From positions 390 through 21,969 of IMG/VR virus record IMGVR_UViG_3300037961_001600: a DNA stretch of 21,580 bases; one strand, written 5' to 3'. A program made the translations under genes and the position numbers. The notes beneath the pieces were generated by a model. That model was not told where the DNA came from. It saw only the letters and a program-made list of their open reading frames with translations, and made no database searches. Shown here one piece after another: positions 7,547 to 14,890 of this stretch. The stretch comes from a virus. Numbering within the stretch: position 1 is the first letter of the stretch; every line of letters starts with the position of its first letter.

Positions 7547-7728
7547 GAATTGATATGATGCCAAATTAAAGATTTTTGTAAATCACTATATTTATAATTC
7601 TTTAATCTTTCTTGACAATCTCTTTTCAACTTATTCTCTTTCATCTTCATATCACTATAGTTATTTTCTAAAGGAGGAGTATTCGAATTTATGACAATGT
7701 GAGAATAGTTATATTTGCAATCTGCCAT
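7531..7728 (-). CDS. Doubtful 65-aa ORF in leader of the leftward operon
   Basis: An open frame begins MADCKYNYSHIVIN and ends basic and helical. No ribosome-binding site is seen before ATG 7728, and internal Met codons at about 7650 also lack one. It lies between the divergent control region and the first well-supported leftward gene, so it could be a small early protein or simply AT-rich leader. Two Cys and several Asn/Tyr residues give no family clue. Confidence 0.35.
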   Translation of the reverse strand: MADCKYNYSHIVINSNTPPLENNYSDMKMKENKLKRDCQERLKNYKYSDLQKSLIWHHINSTTKV

Positions 7729-7770
7729 AAGTTAGACATATAGTAATTTTGAATAACTAGCAAGAATTAT

Positions 7771-7799
7771 TTGGTATTTTTTTTATTTTAGTATATACA
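7771..7799 (+). promoter_or_regulatory. Candidate sigma70-type promoter for the rightward early genes
   Basis: TTGGTA (7771-7776) and TATACA (7794-7799) are separated by 17 nt in the intergenic space between divergent gene blocks. The next plausible rightward ORF begins at 7868. The surrounding DNA is extremely AT-rich, so such matches also occur by chance. The symmetric TAGTATATACA could serve the leftward strand as well, but no matching leftward -35 stands out. Confidence 0.35.
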
Positions 7800-7867
7800 T
7801 CAAATTGTGTCTGTATTTTACAAATATTTGTTTTTGCGTGATACAGATAAAAACAGGGAAATACGTT

Positions 7868-7975
7868 ATGTTTTATGCGTTTTTGAGGCTTTTTTACAAT
7901 ACAAGAAGATTTGCAAAGAAAACTTACTTGAGTTTACTGAAATGGATAACATTATTTGGGAAGGAGTTTTATTAG
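7868..7975 (+). CDS. Candidate 35-aa basic aromatic peptide
   Basis: The ORF encodes a peptide rich in Phe, Tyr, Leu, Lys and Arg (MFYAFLRLFYNTRRFAKK...), with an amphipathic, possibly membrane-active look. GGGAA lies about 7 nt before the ATG. Its stop at 7973-7975 is 3 nt before the next start, and the RBS of that gene (GGAAGGAG) lies inside its end. It could be a coupled leader peptide or a small toxin-like early protein. A competing frame from GTG 7807 covers the same DNA but is less likely. Confidence 0.42.
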   Translation: MFYAFLRLFYNTRRFAKKTYLSLLKWITLFGKEFY

Positions 7976-7978
7976 AAT

Positions 7979-8248
7979 ATGGATCAAAACCAAATGAAAT
8001 GCCCAACTTGCAACAGGCTACACATCTCTACAGACTATTCTCCGACCAAAAAAGAAAAGCAGATACTCCAATTCATTCTAAAATACCAACAGGAAAATAT
8101 GCCTAGTCCAAGCTACAGAGATATTGCAAAATTTATAGGTTTAAAAACTACTAACAGTATTCACAAATATTTATATAGACTGAAAGAAAATGGTTATGTA
8201 GATTTTGTTCCAGCGATGAAACAAAATGTCAAGGTGATTAAAACATGA
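7979..8248 (+). CDS. LexA-like winged-helix DNA-binding protein
   Basis: The 89-residue protein starts with a CPTC pair (Cys8, Cys11). From residue 23 it shows the LexA DNA-binding pattern: TKKEKQILQFILKYQ, PSPSYRDIAKFIGLKT, SIHKYLYRLKENGYV. The LexA autopeptidase domain is absent, so it cannot be a self-cleaving repressor. It is probably an early transcription regulator or a replication-origin binder. GGAAGGAG lies 12 nt before ATG 7979, and a second ATG at 7994 is possible. The stop overlaps the next start (ATGA). Confidence 0.8.
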   Translation: MDQNQMKCPTCNRLHISTDYSPTKKEKQILQFILKYQQENMPSPSYRDIAKFIGLKTTNSIHKYLYRLKENGYVDFVPAMKQNVKVIKT

Positions 8249-9063
8249 TTGATAAATTACCAGCTATGTATTTCTTTCCAAATGATTACATAGCCTCTAC
8301 AAGATCATTTACAATGGCACAGAGGGGTATTTATACAGACCTTTTATTCTTTAGTCACACAATGAATGGCAAAGGTTTACCTTGTGATATTAACGAACTT
8401 TGCAAACTAATATTTCAAATGACGTTTGACTTAGAGGAAATTGAGCAGAACAGGTCTGATCTAATTTATGTTTTAGAAAAAAAGTTTTACATAGAAAATG
8501 ATCGCTACTTTAACAAAAGACAACAACTTGAATTTGTTAAGGGTATTGAACTCTCTAACAAGAGAAGTCAAGCTAGAAAAAAGTCTAAAGAAAAATTTGA
8601 TAGCGTTTTGTCAGATCAACTTGTTGTCACTGTAGATAAAGATGAAGATAAAGATGTATCTAATATATTTATATATATATGGGATAGTTTAAAAGTTCGT
8701 AGGGGATCAAAAAAACTAGCTTTTGAAAAGTTTAAAAAGATTAAAGACATTGACGCTGAAGTTATTATCACTAAATACAATAAGTTATGTGATCAAGCTA
8801 GTGATGACAAATATATCCCACACTTTGCAACTTGGCTCAACCAAGAACGTTTTAATGACGAAGATGTCTTTAGCATTGAAGATTTCAAAAAAAGACATAA
8901 CATAACTGCTAACTTTATTGAAGAAAAAGACGGATTATTATTTTTTACTACTAAAGAAGCATGGGGAATTATGGATTGGATCTATGATAAAAAAGGCAAC
9001 CACATTAAACCAAACGAGCTAGATGGCAAAAAAGAAGAAGAAACAGAAAAAACACAATCCTGA
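8245..9063 (+). CDS. DUF1376 replication-type protein
   Basis: The 272-residue protein begins with the DUF1376 pattern: MYFFPNDYIASTRSFTMAQRGIYTDLLFFSH, then GLPCDINELCKLI. It continues with a Lys/Arg-rich linker (about 105-135). The C-terminal part with RRGSKKLAFEKFKKI and IPHFATWLNQERFNDE resembles the second domain of phage replication-initiation or helicase-loader proteins. Such proteins often stand where lambda O or a loader would be. No helicase or polymerase is encoded in this window, so it may recruit host enzymes, which is inference. It overlaps the previous gene by 4 nt and the next by 41 nt. Confidence 0.78.
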   Translation: MIDKLPAMYFFPNDYIASTRSFTMAQRGIYTDLLFFSHTMNGKGLPCDINELCKLIFQMTFDLEEIEQNRSDLIYVLEKKFYIENDRYFNKRQQLEFVKGIELSNKRSQARKKSKEKFDSVLSDQLVVTVDKDEDKDVSNIFIYIWDSLKVRRGSKKLAFEKFKKIKDIDAEVIITKYNKLCDQASDDKYIPHFATWLNQERFNDEDVFSIEDFKKRHNITANFIEEKDGLLFFTTKEAWGIMDWIYDKKGNHIKPNELDGKKEEETEKTQS

Positions 9064-9556
9064 AGCTCAACCCATAGAAGAAATGGATCGAGGTGGTCAA
9101 GAGATCATTACGATTGACGGACAACTTTATAGACTCCCTGATATGAAGCCTATGAAACAAGGGTTAAAACATATTTATGGGGAAATAAACTCAAATTTAC
9201 AAAAGTATTATCACAAAAACTTACTTTGCCCTCAAGATAGTCGAATAAATGCCTTGAGATTTGTGGCAGGAGAAAAGCTAGAAGCATTATCAGTTTATGC
9301 AGGACTCCAATCTAGCCAAACCTTTAATTGGGATCGCCTAGAGGGTGTTCCAATGGGTAATTCGCTTGAAATATTCAATCTTAATGGTTTTGATGCCCAT
9401 GACCAATTCAACAAAGCCATGCAATCTATCCCATTAAACCTACAATCAGCAACTTATAACCTTATTGTTAATGACCAACCTGTCGGTAGACGTAAAGGAA
9501 TGGATAATTTAAAGGAAAGTCTTGATTGTCTAAGAGATTTCTTTAAGATGGGTTAG
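9023..9556 (+). CDS. DUF6456-like protein
   Basis: The 177-residue protein starts with a poly-Lys head (MAKKKKKQKKHN). A core from about residue 70 has INALRFVAGEKLEALSVYAG, a helix pair with NKAMQSIPLN and a final NLKESLDCLRDFF. This order (RxxAGEKL, a long helix, then a C-terminal LxxSLDxLxxFF helix) resembles DUF6456 and related regulators of alphaproteobacteria and their phages. It may bind DNA or regulate early/late switching. A hairpin that could end the transcript begins at the stop codon. The gene overlaps its neighbour by 41 nt. Confidence 0.7.
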   Translation: MAKKKKKQKKHNPEAQPIEEMDRGGQEIITIDGQLYRLPDMKPMKQGLKHIYGEINSNLQKYYHKNLLCPQDSRINALRFVAGEKLEALSVYAGLQSSQTFNWDRLEGVPMGNSLEIFNLNGFDAHDQFNKAMQSIPLNLQSATYNLIVNDQPVGRRKGMDNLKESLDCLRDFFKMG

Positions 9557-9581
9557 CCCTCTATCCTCGCTTCAAGAGGGC
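9556..9581 (+). terminator. GC-rich hairpin after DUF6456-like gene
   Basis: GCCCTCT (9556-9562) and AGAGGGC (9575-9581) form a perfect 7-bp stem with a 12-nt loop, starting at the last base of the stop codon. Only a broken T-rich stretch follows (TTGTTCTC...), so termination would be weak. The arms carry the same AGCCCTCT word found in the leftward operon near the ParB-like gene, so a protein-binding role is also possible. Confidence 0.5.
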
Positions 9582-9665
9582 ATTGTTCTCAGTTTGTTCT
9601 ATTTAGATTATGGATCGTAAATGATATGAATTTACTAAGGTGGAAAATTCTGCCTAAATCTTATT

Positions 9666-9950
9666 ATGAACGCCTATGTTAATTTATGGGTGTCAGTTTT
9701 ATCAAGGAATATTTTAGACGCAACTTTTAGAACTAGCCCAAATTATGATATATCAGATCATGTCCTTTGTGCTGAAGCACAGGCATGGATCAATAGTAAA
9801 AGTTTCAAATTTATTTGTATGTTAATTAATATCGAGCCAACAATAGTGGTAAAAATCTATGAAAAAATCAACAAAACCAGAAAAAAAATCAGTCAATCGG
9901 AAGCATTTGAAATCGTCAAAAAAGCCATTGAACGACATATTACTCGATAA
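9666..9950 (+). CDS. Hypothetical small protein with AWINS...CMLINIEP core
   Basis: A 94-residue protein with a core EAQAWINSKSFKFICMLINIEP and VVKIYEKI. This layout (Trp, a short loop, Phe, Cys, then xIxP and a helix) is shared with small phage and alphaproteobacterial proteins that I cannot name. The C-terminal third is a basic helix. No clear RBS precedes ATG 9666. A GGTGG at 9639-9643 is too far. No alternative ATG, GTG or TTG lies in frame upstream before a stop at 9636. It overlaps the next ORF by 92 nt. Confidence 0.65.
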   Translation: MNAYVNLWVSVLSRNILDATFRTSPNYDISDHVLCAEAQAWINSKSFKFICMLINIEPTIVVKIYEKINKTRKKISQSEAFEIVKKAIERHITR

Positions 9951-10174: not shown

Positions 10175-10921
10175 TTACTCAAAATAATATTTAGCTTTTT
10201 GTCTATTTTTGTAATTATGAACAGATAATATACTTTTTAGATTTTCTTCTACTGTATATGCGTTTTTCCATTGATGAGGAAATTTAGTAAAGTTTTCTAA
10301 AAAAGTATAAATATCAAAATTATCTTGCTTTCTTAATTTCAATAAAGCACGAATAAAATAAATCCTATTCCATATTTTAGGCTCTATTTTTGACTCTTTT
10401 AACATTAATATTTGTCCTTTTACTTTTTCAAAAACAGGATTTGGAATTTCTAAATTTCCATTCCTAAAGTCAAAATAACTACTTCTAATTTTATCTTCAC
10501 CTAAAGATAAATAAGAACAGGCTTCAACAACAGTAGAATGAGATACACCTAAAGATACTAATTCTAAATATTTTTTATAATGTTCTCTATTTTTACTATG
10601 TATGACAAAAGCACCTGCAATATCAATATTGTTCCAATTATTTTGAACGGAATTGATATCTCTAATTAAGTCAATTAGTTTGCTTTTTTCTACATGAAAG
10701 ACAGAATATCGAATGGGAATGTTTAAAGTTTTACAACATTCAAACCTATTTTGTCCGTCAATTATTTGTTTATATTGATCGACCACAATTGGATTTACCA
10801 ATCCAAATGTTTTAATACTATCAATCATTTTACTTACTTTGGAAGATTTAATTTCTCTATTTCCTTCAACGAATATAAATTCGTGATAGTCATTAGAGGT
10901 GTAAATCTGATCTTGTTTCAT
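10175..10921 (-). CDS. ParB-domain protein
   Basis: The 248-residue protein has a ParB/Srx N-terminal domain: FVEGNREIKSSKV (17-29), DSIKTFGLVNPIVV (34-47) and IIDGQNRFE (53-61), the GQNR motif of the ParB nucleotide-binding fold. A middle helical part (about residues 105-145, LELVSLGVSHSTVVEACSYL) could be a DNA-binding helix-turn-helix. The last 90 residues are basic and helical. No ParA-type partner is visible, so classical partition is not supported. It may act as a DNA-binding regulator or nuclease-like protein. It ends the leftward operon and has its own gap with tandem hairpins and a purine-rich RBS (GAAAGAG). Confidence 0.82.
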   Translation of the reverse strand: MKQDQIYTSNDYHEFIFVEGNREIKSSKVSKMIDSIKTFGLVNPIVVDQYKQIIDGQNRFECCKTLNIPIRYSVFHVEKSKLIDLIRDINSVQNNWNNIDIAGAFVIHSKNREHYKKYLELVSLGVSHSTVVEACSYLSLGEDKIRSSYFDFRNGNLEIPNPVFEKVKGQILMLKESKIEPKIWNRIYFIRALLKLRKQDNFDIYTFLENFTKFPHQWKNAYTVEENLKSILSVHNYKNRQKAKYYFE

Positions 10922-10937
10922 GATTTATTCTCTTTCT

Positions 10938-10981
10938 AGTATGCTAAATACATACTTAAAAGCCCTATAAAGAGCTTTTAA
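10938..10981 (-). promoter_or_regulatory. Tandem hairpins before the ParB-like gene
   Basis: AGTATG/CATACT (10938-10943 and 10951-10956, 7-nt loop) abuts TTAAAAGC/GCTTTTAA (10956-10963 and 10974-10981, 10-nt loop). On the leftward transcript the stronger hairpin comes first, 9 nt after the upstream stop at 10990. The second hairpin, the RBS and ATG 10921 follow. It could act as a partial terminator, an RNA processing site or a translational control element. The same layout occurs at 12033-12078. Confidence 0.5.
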
Positions 10982-10989
10982 CTATATAT

Positions 10990-11244
10990 TTAATAATCTG
11001 TTGTAAGTTTAAATTTAACTTCTAAATAATTATCATCACCATAACAATGACAATGTTCATCAGAATGGAATCTAAGAGTTTCTATAAAATCAACTAAATC
11101 GTAAACTTTACACTTAATTGTTTCAACTTTTTTTATGTAAGGTTTTTTTAAAGTAATTGATTTTTCTTTCTTACTATCCCATTTAGTTTTAATACAATTA
11201 ACTTTTGTAATTTCTACATCATCATAACTAAATATTGGTTTCAT
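10990..11244 (-). CDS. Hypothetical small protein
   Basis: An 84-residue protein with a basic first half (KTKWDSKKEKSITLKKPYIKKVETIKCK) and a second half with HSDEHCHCYGDDNYLEVKF. The two Cys and three His in that part could bind metal, but no known finger pattern is clear. The RBS GCGAGGT lies before ATG 11244. It overlaps the upstream gene by 17 nt. The last gene before the ParB leader hairpins. No family was recognised. Confidence 0.7.
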   Translation of the reverse strand: MKPIFSYDDVEITKVNCIKTKWDSKKEKSITLKKPYIKKVETIKCKVYDLVDFIETLRFHSDEHCHCYGDDNYLEVKFKLTTDY

Positions 11245-11419
11245 TATTATTTACCTCGCTGTTTTTATTACTAAAATAGTCATAAGATAAAATCTTATTA
11301 ACTCGCTTTCGTTCCTTTAATCGCATAGCCCTCTCTTTTTCATAGTCGTATGAGGTCTTACCATTACTGAAACGATATCTGTCGTTGGCGACAAATTCTT
11401 TTTTTTCGGTTTTAATCAT
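11228..11419 (-). CDS. Basic hypothetical small protein
   Basis: From ATG 11419 the protein has 63 residues (MIKTEKKEFVANDRYRF...), rich in Lys, Arg, Asn and Tyr, with a central DYEKERAMRLKERKRV helix. The ATG overlaps the stop of the upstream gene in an 8-nt ATGATTAA junction. Longer starts up to 11470 lie inside that gene and are not favoured. It may bind nucleic acid through the basic helix, which is inference. Confidence 0.68.
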   Translation of the reverse strand: MIKTEKKEFVANDRYRFSNGKTSYDYEKERAMRLKERKRVNKILSYDYFSNKNSEVNNNETNI

Positions 11420-11681
11420 TAAGATCGTTTTTTTTATATGTTTCATTAAACCAAATTTCATCAAGTTCACCTTGACTTATATAGCCCTCTGATTTGTATT
11501 CATCAGCATAAGTTTGGCTACAGTCATCACATACGCAAATTGTATCGTCTACTGGATTGGTTTTACTTTCCCAAATTTCAATAGCTACATCTTCGTGTAA
11601 TATTCTGCCACACTCTTGACATGGTTGTTTATATTGTTCGTCATGATAATCTGGTATTTTATATGTATCGATTTTAATCAT
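11412..11681 (-). CDS. Zinc-ribbon-like small protein
   Basis: An 89-residue acidic protein with two knuckles, CxxC (Cys21, Cys24 in PCQECGR) and CxCxxC (Cys49, Cys51, Cys54 in CVCDDC), as in a treble-clef or zinc-ribbon fold. The C-terminal half is acidic. The start MIK lies in an 8-nt ATGATTAA overlap with the upstream stop, the same junction used again at its own 3' end. It could bind a protein partner such as host RNA polymerase or a nuclease, but nothing in the sequence proves this. Confidence 0.72.
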   Translation of the reverse strand: MIKIDTYKIPDYHDEQYKQPCQECGRILHEDVAIEIWESKTNPVDDTICVCDDCSQTYADEYKSEGYISQGELDEIWFNETYKKNDLND

Positions 11682-11916
11682 GATTATTTATCTCTCTATC
11701 ATTAAACCAATCAGCAAATAAATCTTGAGCTAGTAAACTGCATTCTTCAGCAAAATAATCTTGATTACTTGAAACAAAATTATTCCATTCATCTTCTGAT
11801 ATTTTGTATTTATTTTCAGAGTCTAAATGTCTTAACTCTATAAATTGATACAATGAATTAATTGGTATTAAATAGTTTTCGTCTATTTGTTTTTTTAATT
11901 TTTCAATTTCAGTCAT
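11674..11916 (-). CDS. Acidic hypothetical small protein
   Basis: An 80-residue acidic protein of helical character (MTEIEKLKKQIDENYLIP, SEDEWNNFVSSNQDYFAEE, QDLFADWFNDREI). No Cys-rich site apart from one Cys, and no membrane segment. The RBS is purine-rich (AAGAAAGAG). It overlaps the 35-aa membrane peptide upstream by 8 nt and the zinc-ribbon gene downstream by 8 nt. No family was recognised. Confidence 0.7.
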   Translation of the reverse strand: MTEIEKLKKQIDENYLIPINSLYQFIELRHLDSENKYKISEDEWNNFVSSNQDYFAEECSLLAQDLFADWFNDREINNHD

Positions 11917-12016
11917 TGTTTTTCTCTTTCTTAGCTCTCTTATAAAGTTTGTAAGATATATAAAAGAACGCTACCAATAAAATTAAGTCTAATCCGTTAA
12001 GTCCATAAAAAGGCAT
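11909..12016 (-). CDS. 35-aa membrane peptide
   Basis: A short ORF with an N-terminal MPFYGLNG, a membrane segment at about residues 9-22 (LDLILLVAFFYISY) and a basic, probably cytoplasmic, tail (KLYKRAKKEKNND). GAGG lies 5 nt before ATG 12016, and the stop overlaps the next gene by 8 nt. The preceding leader contains the tandem hairpins at 12033-12078. The function is unknown. The topology resembles small phage inhibitors or accessory membrane peptides, but this is only an analogy. Confidence 0.65.
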   Translation of the reverse strand: MPFYGLNGLDLILLVAFFYISYKLYKRAKKEKNND

Positions 12017-12032
12017 AACAACCTCGCTTTCT

Positions 12033-12078
12033 TCAATATCATTATAGATATTGATCAGAGGGCTATAAAAAGCCCTCT
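12033..12078 (-). promoter_or_regulatory. Tandem hairpins in the leftward operon
   Basis: TCAATATC/GATATTGA (12033-12040 and 12047-12054, 6-nt loop) is followed 2 nt later by AGAGGGCT/AGCCCTCT (12057-12064 and 12071-12078, 6-nt loop ATAAAA). Both stems are perfect 8-mers. On the leftward transcript the GC-rich hairpin comes first, then the AT-rich one, then GAGG and ATG 12016. There is no clear T-run after the GC-rich stem, so readthrough is likely. The palindrome could equally be a DNA-binding site, since its arm recurs nearby. Confidence 0.55.
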
Positions 12079-12087
12079 AATAAATAC

Positions 12088-12255
12088 CTAATTAAAAAAA
12101 GGTGTTGGAGTTCTTCCAATCTTTACAAGATACAAATTGATTTGATTACAATAATTTTCATATTGTTTTTTAGTTGATCCTGTAAATTGAACTGTAAGAC
12201 CTTTATCCATGTTTTTGACTATTTCTTTTAATTGTCTTTCAGTAAGTTTTAACAT
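12088..12255 (-). CDS. 55-aa hypothetical protein
   Basis: The ORF begins MLKLTERQLKEIVKNMDKGL and ends IGRTPTPFFN. It is helical at the start with an amphipathic middle (TKKQYENYCNQINLYL). Its ATG overlaps the stop of the upstream gene (ATGTTAA, 7 nt), which supports coupled translation, while a separate RBS is weak. The stop is 10 nt before the GC-rich hairpin. No family was recognised. Confidence 0.65.
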   Translation of the reverse strand: MLKLTERQLKEIVKNMDKGLTVQFTGSTKKQYENYCNQINLYLVKIGRTPTPFFN

Positions 12256-12707
12256 CTGTAAATGAAGTAATTTGAATACTCCTCCTCTGCTCCGTTATAA
12301 GTATTTAAAAAATGACCTCTGCCATCAGATAAAATTGCATCTTCTACAAAATGATCAAAATCATCTATTAAAGAAAATACTGCTTCATTAGAACTCTCGC
12401 ATTGATCAGCTAATATTTCAAAAACTCTCTCGTCAGCTTTTGAGTGAGAAGATAAAAAAGAAGAATTAAAAGCCCAAACAGAATCTCTGATATATTCTTT
12501 TACTTTCTCGTCTGCTTCTTCATCAGTAAGAACCATATAAGACTCATTGACATTAGCTCCGTCTAAATCAATGTAAGATGTATCATCATCATTTATTTTA
12601 AATTGAATATGATCCATTTCTTCTTTAGTAAATCCGTCATTAACTAAAAAAGAATGGAGAGCTTTGGCTCTATCGTCATGATCGTGATTAATATAGTTAA
12701 TAGTCAT
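12249..12707 (-). CDS. Acidic hypothetical protein, first gene of the leftward operon
   Basis: A 152-residue acidic protein with two patterns that recur in phage hypotheticals: YMVLTDEEADEKVKEYI followed by WAFNSSFL, and the end SDGRGHFLNTYNGAEEE with YFIYR. The N-terminal NHDHDDRAKAL and the high Asp/Glu content stand out. GAGG lies 5 nt before ATG 12707, and a promoter-like sequence is 26 nt further upstream. Acidic, DNA-mimic-like accessory proteins are sometimes anti-defence factors, but no motif here shows that. Confidence 0.75.
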   Translation of the reverse strand: MTINYINHDHDDRAKALHSFLVNDGFTKEEMDHIQFKINDDDTSYIDLDGANVNESYMVLTDEEADEKVKEYIRDSVWAFNSSFLSSHSKADERVFEILADQCESSNEAVFSLIDDFDHFVEDAILSDGRGHFLNTYNGAEEEYSNYFIYRC

Positions 12708-12732
12708 AATTACCTCGCATTATTAATTATTT

Positions 12733-12763
12733 ATAATAGATCAAATATTAAAGAATATGTCAA
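12733..12763 (-). promoter_or_regulatory. Candidate promoter for the leftward accessory operon
   Basis: On the leftward strand TTGACA (12763-12758) is a perfect -35 box and TATTAT (12738-12733) a 5/6 match to -10, with a 19-nt spacer, slightly longer than ideal. The first gene starts at 12707, 26 nt after the -10. It fits a host sigma70-type promoter. Confidence 0.55.
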
Positions 12764-12840
12764 GAGCAATTAAGGACTAAATGGGATTTTATAAACAATC
12801 TAAATCAAACCAATTTGCCACGAATTAACCACCAAAAACC

Positions 12841-13047
12841 ATGAAACAAATACCAACTATTAGAGAAAAACAATCATATATAATAAAAGCTATATATAAG
12901 GGTATAAAGAATACATATAGAAAGATAAAAGATATATTAATAGAAAGTATTGATATTATTAGACTTATATACGTTGCGTTTAAGGTTTATAATATTACTA
13001 ATGGTTATAGATATATAAAACATAAGAACAATATACAAAGTTCTTAA
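12841..13047 (+). CDS. Doubtful 68-aa ORF in AT-rich gap
   Basis: An open frame with many Ile, Lys and Tyr residues (IREKQSYIIKAIYKGIKNTYRKIKDIL...). The composition mirrors the surrounding AT-rich DNA. There is no ribosome-binding site before ATG 12841 (CACCAAAAACC). It ends just inside the inverted-repeat element at 13040-13176. It may be a small membrane-associated helix protein, but chance is as likely. Confidence 0.3.
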   Translation: MKQIPTIREKQSYIIKAIYKGIKNTYRKIKDILIESIDIIRLIYVAFKVYNITNGYRYIKHKNNIQSS

Positions 13048-13176
13048 AGATATCCTAAATAAACATAAATATAATAATATATTACTGTTTTGTGATGTAA
13101 TGTTATGTATTTTTATCTGTAATAGTGTTTATAGTGATAATATATTACTAAATTAGGATAATTAATTTATAAGAAC
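13040..13176. repeat. Nested inverted repeat with duplicated palindromic 13-mer; candidate control or replication site
   Basis: Three arm pairs are arranged symmetrically in a 137-bp non-coding stretch. The outer pair is GTTCTTA (13040-13046) and TAAGAAC (13170-13176). The middle pair is TATCCTAA (13051-13058) and TTAGGATA (13153-13160). The inner pair is two copies of ATAATATATTACT (13074-13086 and 13137-13149), which contain the 10-bp palindrome TAATATATTA. The stretch lies in the AT-rich gap between the divergent leftward accessory operon and the rightward head genes. It may be an origin, an operator or an mRNA leader structure. The rest of the gap (13177-13261) holds a C-rich CCCCCACACACA strand and a short 5-bp hairpin, with no clear promoter. 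Confidence 0.5.
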
Positions 13177-13261
13177 ACAATACAAACAAACCCCCACACA
13201 CAATATTTTATATATATATGGACTGATTTCAACTCAGTACAAATCTCTATAAAGGCTCAAA

Positions 13262-13480
13262 ATGGATATAGATTTTAGATTAAAAAAAGATATTATACCG
13301 ACAGGCAAACTACATAGTGAGTTCGCTATATTTAGTTGGGATAGAAAACAAGAAATGCAAAAAAGAGTATGTTTATATTGTGATGCTTGGGGTACATTTG
13401 CGATACAACCGCAAGACGCATATCGACAATATTACTTCTTGTGTGGAGATCATTATTCAAATGAAAAAAAAGAAGATTAA
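13262..13480 (+). CDS. Small zinc-finger-like protein
   Basis: A 72-residue protein with CxxC (Cys37, Cys40 in VCLYCDAWG) and CxxH (Cys61, His64 in FLCGDHY), spaced as a small zinc finger. The first third is mixed charged with a TGKLHSEF strand. The RBS is weak (AAAGG). It starts the rightward head-gene unit and overlaps the next small gene by 20 nt. The function is unknown, and a packaging- or regulation-linked role would be a guess from position. Confidence 0.68.
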   Translation: MDIDFRLKKDIIPTGKLHSEFAIFSWDRKQEMQKRVCLYCDAWGTFAIQPQDAYRQYYFLCGDHYSNEKKED

Positions 13481-13640
13481 GAAGGCTACAAAGCCTCAAA
13501 TTAGTGTCATGAGTGTTTTATTAGGTGAACTGCCAGATAGGTCTCCTGTGGTAAAAAATTCAGGAAAAAACCTAGTATCTGATCGTAGTGTCGCTAGGAT
13601 TAATGACTATCTAAAGGATAATCAAAAAGATGACGCATGA
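13461..13640 (+). CDS. Small basic protein before the large terminase
   Basis: From ATG 13461 the protein has 59 residues: a Lys-rich head (MKKKKIKKATKPQIS), then VLLGELPDRSPVVKN and RSVARINDYLKDNQ. GGAG lies 12 nt upstream, and the stop overlaps the terminase ATG (ATGA). A longer frame from 13317 lies inside the zinc-finger gene and is not needed. It sits where a small terminase would be expected, but the HTH-containing small terminase candidate is at 1291. No family was recognised. Confidence 0.65.
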   Translation: MKKKKIKKATKPQISVMSVLLGELPDRSPVVKNSGKNLVSDRSVARINDYLKDNQKDDA

Positions 13641-14890
13641 ACACCATAACGATTCCCTATAAGCCTAGAGAATTACAACAACAAGTTCATAAGAACCTAA
13701 AACGATTTAATGTATTAGTATGTCATAGACGTTTTGGTAAGACAGTTCTAACAGTCAATGAGTTGATCAAACGATGTCTCCAATGTCAATTACCAAGACC
13801 ACGATATTATTATATCGCACCGACATACAGCATGGCGAAAAGAATAGCTTGGGATTATCTCAAGTATTACACTTCTGTTTTGCCAAATATGGATTATCAC
13901 GAGACCGAACTCAGAGCTGAACTCCCTAATGGAGGCAGAATACAATTACTCGGTTGTGAACGACCACAAACCCTAAAAGGACTCTATATTGATGGTGTAG
14001 TATTAGATGAGGTAGCCCAGATGCCACCGAAGATGTGGACTGAGGTCATACGACCTGCACTATCAGATCGAGAAGGGTTTATGATTGCGATTGGCACACC
14101 TGCTGGACATAACGCCTTTTTCGACCTATATAATCATGGACTGCATGATGATAACTGGTTTACTGCTAAATTTAAAGCGAGTGAAACGAAGGTCGTCAAA
14201 GAAGAAGAATTAGCCGAAGCAAAAAAATTAATGCCTCCTGAGATATACGAGGCAGAATATGAATGTAGTTTTGAAAGCTCTGCAATCGGAGCTATATACT
14301 CACAAGGACTGAATAAAGCCGAAGATGAGAGTCGTATAACAAAAGTACCTTATGATCCGACATTGAAGGTATCGACCTTTTGGGATCTAGGAATGGCAGA
14401 TAAAACCTCAATATGGTTCTGTCAGCAAAAAGGCACAGCTATACACCTCATTGACTACTTTGAAGATAGTGGTGAATCCCTAGAATACTATGCCTCAATC
14501 CTACAAGATCGAGGATATATCTACGATACACACTACCTACCTCACGATGCTAATGTCCGAGAGATCGGAACAGGTAAATCAAGGGTAGAAATCGCACAAA
14601 GTCTTGGCTTGACGACTAGTATTGTACCGAAGATGAGTATAGAAGATGGAATTAACGCAGTCAGAATGACGTTATCACGATGTTATTTTGATTTTGAAAA
14701 GACAAAAGAAGGATTAGATGCCCTCAGACAGTATCGATGGGCTGTAAACGACAAAGGCGAAAGCAAAAATAGACCACAGCACGACTGGACATCGCACAGT
14801 GCTGACGCATTTCGCTATTTATGTACTGGATTACAGGAAACAAAAAACTGGTCTACACAAATTAATTATCCGAAGCTAGGAATTGTATAA
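13637..14890 (+). CDS. terL: Terminase large subunit
   Basis: The 417-residue packaging motor has an ATPase with a Walker A-like CHRRFGKT (29-36), a Walker B GVVLDE (120-125) and a coupling motif IGTP (152-155). The C-terminal RNase H-like nuclease has Asp250 (FWDLGMAD), Asp304 (LPHDA) and Asp390 (HSADAFRY), the three expected metal ligands. It cuts concatemeric DNA and pumps it into the procapsid through the portal, which is encoded next (the stop shares a base with the portal ATG). The length and motif order resemble the P22/Sf6 type, suggesting headful packaging. This is an inference. Confidence 0.95.
   Translation: MNTITIPYKPRELQQQVHKNLKRFNVLVCHRRFGKTVLTVNELIKRCLQCQLPRPRYYYIAPTYSMAKRIAWDYLKYYTSVLPNMDYHETELRAELPNGGRIQLLGCERPQTLKGLYIDGVVLDEVAQMPPKMWTEVIRPALSDREGFMIAIGTPAGHNAFFDLYNHGLHDDNWFTAKFKASETKVVKEEELAEAKKLMPPEIYEAEYECSFESSAIGAIYSQGLNKAEDESRITKVPYDPTLKVSTFWDLGMADKTSIWFCQQKGTAIHLIDYFEDSGESLEYYASILQDRGYIYDTHYLPHDANVREIGTGKSRVEIAQSLGLTTSIVPKMSIEDGINAVRMTLSRCYFDFEKTKEGLDALRQYRWAVNDKGESKNRPQHDWTSHSADAFRYLCTGLQETKNWSTQINYPKLGIV

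Follow-up and report, generated by a model that had tools for sequence, protein, structure and literature searches.

Middle promoters of phage T4 carry a MotA box near −30, and Pho-box-like direct repeats have an 11-bp period. In the headful phage SPP1, the pac site spans promoters and contains direct repeats (PMC4737164). Among the HTVC010P-like pelagiphages, Skadi-1 is reported to lack an RNA polymerase of its own and nine of ten Skadi genomes assemble as circular contigs (PMC10504331). The literature that we searched says little on the control of late genes in abundant marine podovirus-like phages that have no RNA polymerase of their own. Here, we describe a bipartite element in a marine phage, in a window of 21,580 nucleotides at positions 390–21969 of a 30,496-base virus record (IMGVR_UViG_3300037961_001600); the element is real, conserved, and unexplained in detail. 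It occupies 13189–13256 and seems to be the conserved centre of a regulatory region. We put the probability at about one half that the late operon is controlled from this element, through an activator-dependent promoter with its leader; the genes under its control would probably be those that build and pack virus particles. No description of the element was recognised in the literature searched (titles and abstract openings, with partial coverage). As it is compact and single-copy and has a probable counterpart in cultured pelagiphages, a role as late promoter or packaging start is testable in existing laboratory systems.

From 13262 on, every open reading frame of the structural block lies on the plus strand. 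The first late gene (13262–13480, +) encodes a cysteine-rich small protein of 72 amino acids with no assigned family; searches of Pfam, PHROGs, and the PDB gave no match. This protein is 66–77% identical in distant relatives, in which the replication proteins are about 40% identical. The terminase large subunit (TerL; 13637–14890, +) is the first of the packaging and structural genes. It was recognised by its PHROGs match, as were the portal, the major capsid protein, and a TerS candidate of the Sf6 type, which lies in the lysis region at 1291–1713, about 11.5 kb from TerL. Within the phage collection, TerL is closest to the proteins of HTVC010P-group pelagiphages, at about 50% identity.

The left boundary of the gap is a small gene for 68 amino acids (12841–13047, +). 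Its substitutions are biased to the third codon position, numbering at first, second, and third positions 3/3/7 against L002, 4/4/12 against L003, and 3/4/7 against L005, and its conserved C-terminal peptide IRLIYVxFKVxNI...YIKHKNNIQSS is in frame in L006, L007, and L008. The gap, which the preliminary description placed between divergent transcription units, thus lies between two plus-strand genes, and the true divergent interval is 12708–12840. Within the latter, the minus strand of 12708–12770 carries TTGACA (12763–12758) and TATTAT (12738–12733), 19 nt apart, and GCGAGG follows this pair and precedes the leftward gene. The stretch is well preserved among 10 aligned relatives and likely represents an early leftward promoter. 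The leftward block at 10175–12707 is an accessory cassette, most of whose genes, including the ParB-like one, are absent or replaced in relatives, unlike the block at 7979–9950, which many relatives retain.

Viral contigs are rich in close TerL relatives, which are encoded by 131 of the 136 stretches matched. The family set comprises 80 loci from these matches, or 81 sequences with the window. Across 46 distinct instances of the element, positions 1–6 (ACCCCC) and about 31–69 are conserved and the middle is variable. The left half, AACCCCCA (13189–13196, +), hereafter the C box, occurs once in the window, and its ACCCC is invariant in all 46 instances. The right half, a 35-nt block ACTGATTTCAACTCAGTACAAATCTCTATAAAGGC (CORE; 13222–13256, +), is the probable leader of the late transcript and ends, ahead of the first late gene, in AAAGG (13251–13255), which reads as a ribosome-binding-site-like sequence 6 nt before the ATG at 13262.

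The 46 instances were picked by a pattern that fixes the offset between the halves and are therefore uninformative on constant spacing. For the spacing test, CORE was placed first, by a weight matrix trained on the same 46 instances, and any C-run was then sought in the preceding 80 nt; two chance matches (L039 on the minus strand and L066 at 6590) had been removed from the instance set before the count. The scan reached as far as 2.6 kb upstream of TerL and took in the sequences with at least 450 nt there, which left out 15 of the 81. CORE was matched in 64 of the 66 sequences scanned, with scores of 28.8–46.3 against a best score of 2.8 in downstream control DNA; L022 and L059 gave no match upstream of TerL. 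Sixty-three of these 64 carry a run of at least four C whose first base is 31 nt before CORE (32 in L033 and L036, which have one extra C). The spacing is constant in all 63 sequences in which both halves are covered, the exception being L050, whose contig starts inside the spacer.

The distance from CORE to TerL ranges from about 200 to 1790 nt, as small genes or a tRNA gene may intervene. Twelve loci, chosen because ten of them looked tRNA-bearing, were scanned for tRNA genes; the ten carry six Thr-GGT and four Val-GAC genes on the minus strand, each beginning 68–70 nt from the first base of the C box, just where CORE ends (for example L014 4916–4990 and L054 2856–2930, with eight other loci alike). 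The window has no tRNA gene at this point. CORE is kept even where an opposite-strand tRNA gene directly adjoins it, which argues that it is not only a ribosome-binding leader. Of 16 loci checked for context, 13 fit the strict element pattern and nine of these also contain TerL; in the stretches of L090, L100, L103, and L106, which have no TerL, the sequence ends 133–1008 nt past the element start, and the full record of L090 carries TerL at 7642–8889. A search of bacterial genome contigs with the CORE pattern gave no match, and a 961-bp nucleotide search of the phage collection gave one weak match, which falls within the first 65 bases and is to a Vibrio phage.

What does the element do? Our main argument is positional: the late genes start at 13262 on the plus strand, a rightward transcription start is needed there, and the bipartite element is the only sequence upstream of the late operon that is conserved across the family. 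A late promoter served by the host polymerase would be expected in the HTVC010P-like group, given that Skadi-1 is reported to have no polymerase of its own (PMC10504331). In the arrangement we propose, the C box (ACCCCC) would stand in for a −35 box and bind an activator or RNA-polymerase adaptor encoded by the phage, the DNA would open at the AT-rich end of the spacer, transcription would start near 13222, and CORE would be transcribed as leader RNA as far as the first late gene's ribosome-binding site. A doublet with an 11-bp period and ATAATATATTACT sites farther upstream could serve as additional protein-binding sites. We infer promoter activity, the start site, the activator, and the binder of each motif from this arrangement.

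An ordinary sigma-70 promoter is not supported, although the element precedes the first gene of the late operon as a late promoter should. No −10 hexamer was detected at a fixed place (the best of offsets 20–23 gave z = 0.8, a value reached by 96 of 500 shuffles, for 25 distinct spacers), and the box at the conserved position is ACCCCC, not a TTGACA-like −35 box. The sole plus-strand match to the promoter consensus nearby, at 13134–13162, lies away from the element, and the region holds fewer consensus matches than its shuffles do (5 vs 7.9). With no −10 hexamer detectable, the model must suppose that an activator or adaptor acts at the C box. The element resembles T4 middle promoters in that its presumed activator box, in place of a −35 box, would lie some 30 nt ahead of the start as placed here, and differs from them in that no −10 hexamer was detected. 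Counting against a promoter, its −10 part would be the least conserved part of the element, the doublet varies in place and direction, and several relatives have none.

In cultured phages, we examined the gaps before the first late gene in 15 named records, 12 from Pelagibacter phages and three from others. Ten of the 15, all among the 12 Pelagibacter phages, have a C-run that ends 23–25 nt ahead of TATATATA, after which comes CATGG or GACCGG. These ten (HTVC010P, HTVC024P, Greip, HTVC204P, HTVC100P, Lederberg, HTVC034P, Skadi-4, HTVC203P, and HTVC035P) share with the window the layout of a C-run box, a variable spacer of near-constant length, AT-rich TATATATA, GG, the first late gene, and TerL. 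They differ from it in the distance from the end of the C-run to TATATATA, which is about 13 nt in the window, and in the downstream block. The arrangement of C-run and TATATATA is absent from HTVC106P, from HTVC028P, whose gap is cut by the end of the record, and from the three non-Pelagibacter records. TATATATACATGG occurs once each in the whole genomes of HTVC010P and Greip, and the HTVC010P genes at 725–26773 are all on the plus strand, running away from the C-run gap. The pelagiphage arrangement is likely, if not proven, to be homologous to the window element, and the C-run gap of HTVC010P-type phages is its probable counterpart. The gaps of Greip (L086) and HTVC024P (L085) also contain a palindrome-like TTGAGAATnATT.TCATTC before their C-runs, reminiscent of a metal-regulator box, and in those of Skadi-4 (L119) and HTVC203P (L125) TAAGGCAT repeats with an 11-bp period lie roughly 450 nt upstream of the first late gene.

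Between the C box and CORE, the spacing scan delimits a spacer of constant length (13197–13221, 25 nt, +) that is AT-rich, palindrome-prone, and variable between relatives. L002 and L003 are identical over 13223–13262 and 93% identical over 12841–13036, and only 23% identical in the spacer, about the level expected of unrelated AT-rich DNA. Near-identical flanks around random-like identity are hard to reconcile with a neutral spacer. Conversely, in 25 pairs the spacers are at least 75% alike and the blocks downstream of them less than 80%; L073 and L051 are the most extreme, their 22-nt spacers being identical and their blocks 78% identical. Spacers thus seem to have been exchanged between relatives as cassettes whose length stays constant, although fast local mutation rather than exchange may account for single pairs. 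Palindromes in distinct spacers are longer than in dinucleotide shuffles (22 spacers, z = 3.6), also when spacers with TATATA are set aside (17 spacers, z = 3.3), whereas 34 upstream control segments gave z = 0.4.

Just upstream of the C box lies the doublet, TAAGAACACAATACAAACA (13170–13188, +), a degenerate copy of the TACGAACAAAATACGAACA motif with three mismatches. In 44 upstream regions of the family, effectively about 23, the 11-bp period stands far above shuffles in self-similarity (z = 16.7), ahead of 12 bp (6.5) and 22 bp (3.9); at four offsets chosen farther upstream, 11-bp scores average 3.3–3.5, near the shuffle mean. The window's own doublet scores just 3.3. Doublet sequences vary by lineage (TACGAACAAAA, TTATGCGTGTT, TTTATCCGCAT, TATTCTACAAG), and in some relatives the doublet is inverted and farther upstream. 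Direct repeats at this pitch, which many relatives carry upstream of the element, would suit a protein bound to one face of the DNA, and so count in favour of a promoter. As at Pho-box-like sites, a pair of direct repeats spaced by 11 bp precedes a start site, here a presumed one; unlike there, the repeat sequence changes from relative to relative.

These repeats would equally be at home in the pac site of a headful phage, with TerS binding the direct repeats and TerL cutting in or near the palindrome-prone spacer between two motifs at a fixed distance; such a site may overlap a promoter, as in SPP1. A pac site accounts about as well as a promoter for the direct repeats near packaging genes, degenerate as the window copy is, for the fixed spacing, and for the palindrome-prone spacer close to TerL. 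The element is also single-copy, about 200–1800 nt upstream of TerL, and exactly spaced, and the TerS candidate is of a fitting type. The circular contigs of nine of ten Skadi genomes agree with circular permutation (PMC10504331), and SPP1 has direct repeats and promoters together near its packaging genes (PMC4737164). However, the SPP1 site spans the start of terS, whereas terS in the window neither adjoins nor contains the element and lies about 11.5 kb from it, and the repeats differ among relatives in their position and orientation with respect to the C box. Contig ends are not enriched at one point, though a pac site predicts the same. We regard a pac site as the main rival to the promoter, though on balance unlikely.

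A constant-length spacer that is exchangeable is odd enough to need an explanation of its own. More speculatively, and with rather little expectation that it is correct, we suggest that the spacer is a specificity tag: short, palindrome-prone alleles of constant length would be swapped among related phages under selection for difference while the flanking motifs stay fixed, and a phage would thereby tell its own late switch or packaging start from those of competing phages or satellites.

The preliminary description also likened the gap to replication origins and master control regions. A control region is indeed probable here, as a conserved element lies beside the sequences it had singled out, and nothing found is specific to an origin. 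In an origin, the doublets would bind the initiator and the AT-rich stretch would unwind; iteron-like 11-bp doublets, AT-rich DNA, and a replication-initiator-like gene at 8245–9063 speak for this. Yet it is the C box and CORE, not the doublet, that are strictly conserved, 4 kb and other genes separate the initiator gene from this site, and GC skew over the window appears to follow gene direction. We consider an origin improbable.

A cos site, with the spacer as the cut site and the genome ends located here, is less probable still. Its position upstream of TerL and a variable, dyad-rich centre between fixed flanks would suit it, and in the 80 loci 29 contig ends fall within 1 kb upstream of TerL against 13 downstream, an excess that may simply reflect the variability of the region. 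The ends are spread over the gap, however, for which we reject a fixed cos end: L050 alone starts inside the spacer and L009 alone inside CORE, and most contigs read through the element. Cultured relatives, moreover, assemble as circles (PMC10504331). No exact terminal repeat was found in the 600-bp end stretches of two long contigs.

Thirteen base pairs to the left of the bipartite element ends the feature first noted in this gap, three nested arm pairs with a duplicated palindrome. All of these sequences are present: an outer pair GTTCTTA (13040–13046) and TAAGAAC (13170–13176), a second pair TATCCTAA (13051–13058) and TTAGGATA (13153–13160), and an inner pair formed by two copies of ATAATATATTACT (13074–13086 and 13137–13149) with 50 nt between them. 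That they stand out against chance is borne out for the total arm length of 25 bp, reached in none of 1000 dinucleotide shuffles of the 137 bp, and less so for their number, as at least three nested exact pairs of 7 bp or more arose in 34 of the 1000; a direct repeat of at least 13 arose in 14. When the surrounding 600 bp were shuffled, some 137-bp window held at least three nested pairs in 17 of 100 cases, so the choice of the best window matters, and a direct repeat of at least 13 appeared in three of 100.

Conservation of the arms was followed in an alignment of seven sequences, the window and six close relatives (A2). Paired cells make up 88.1% of the outer helix, which shows no two-sided change; 75.0% of the second (14 of 56 cells unpaired), in which four pairs each show a two-sided change in one sequence; and 95.7% of the inner, in which nine of ten pairs are invariant. 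By eye, the TATCCTAA/TTAGGATA arms are unrecognisable in L002, L003, and L005 and altered in L006–L008. For the whole nested structure, 86.9% of cells are paired compared with 84.3% in column shuffles (16 of 500 as high), and four pairs have a two-sided change compared with 1.8 (11 of 500 as high), a weak signal at best, the sequences being few and related. On the left, the outer arm overlies the small gene's stop codon, and the right one falls within the doublet motif that recurs in relatives. We therefore reject the nested arms as a conserved unit, since the two outer pairs decay in close relatives while the inner ATAATATATTACT copies are kept; the arms do not form a single structure but overlap pieces of what appears to be a regulatory region. 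Lack of arm conservation, which the preliminary description named as a ground for refuting it, thus applies to the outer two pairs and not to the inner one. A structured RNA or cruciform built from them is very unlikely despite an arm total above shuffles and one well-kept local dyad, as the outer arms decay, RNAalifold gave no pairs on 31 element sequences (alignment A1) and on A2 only two local hairpins other than the nested arms, with one two-sided change in 20 pairs, and Rfam gave no match up to E = 1; an RNA element, having no covarying family pairs, is rejected.

The first copy of the inner palindrome, TAATAATATATTACT (13072–13086), is identical in seven of seven aligned relatives, and the window holds only two matches to it with at most two mismatches, where 0.42 are expected and 8 of 100 shuffles have as many. 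The second ATAATATATTACT copy lies in the local dyad AGTGATA-ATA-TATTACT (13133–13149), whose pairs are kept in seven of seven sequences with one two-sided change, equalled by 74 of 500 shuffles and hence statistically weak.
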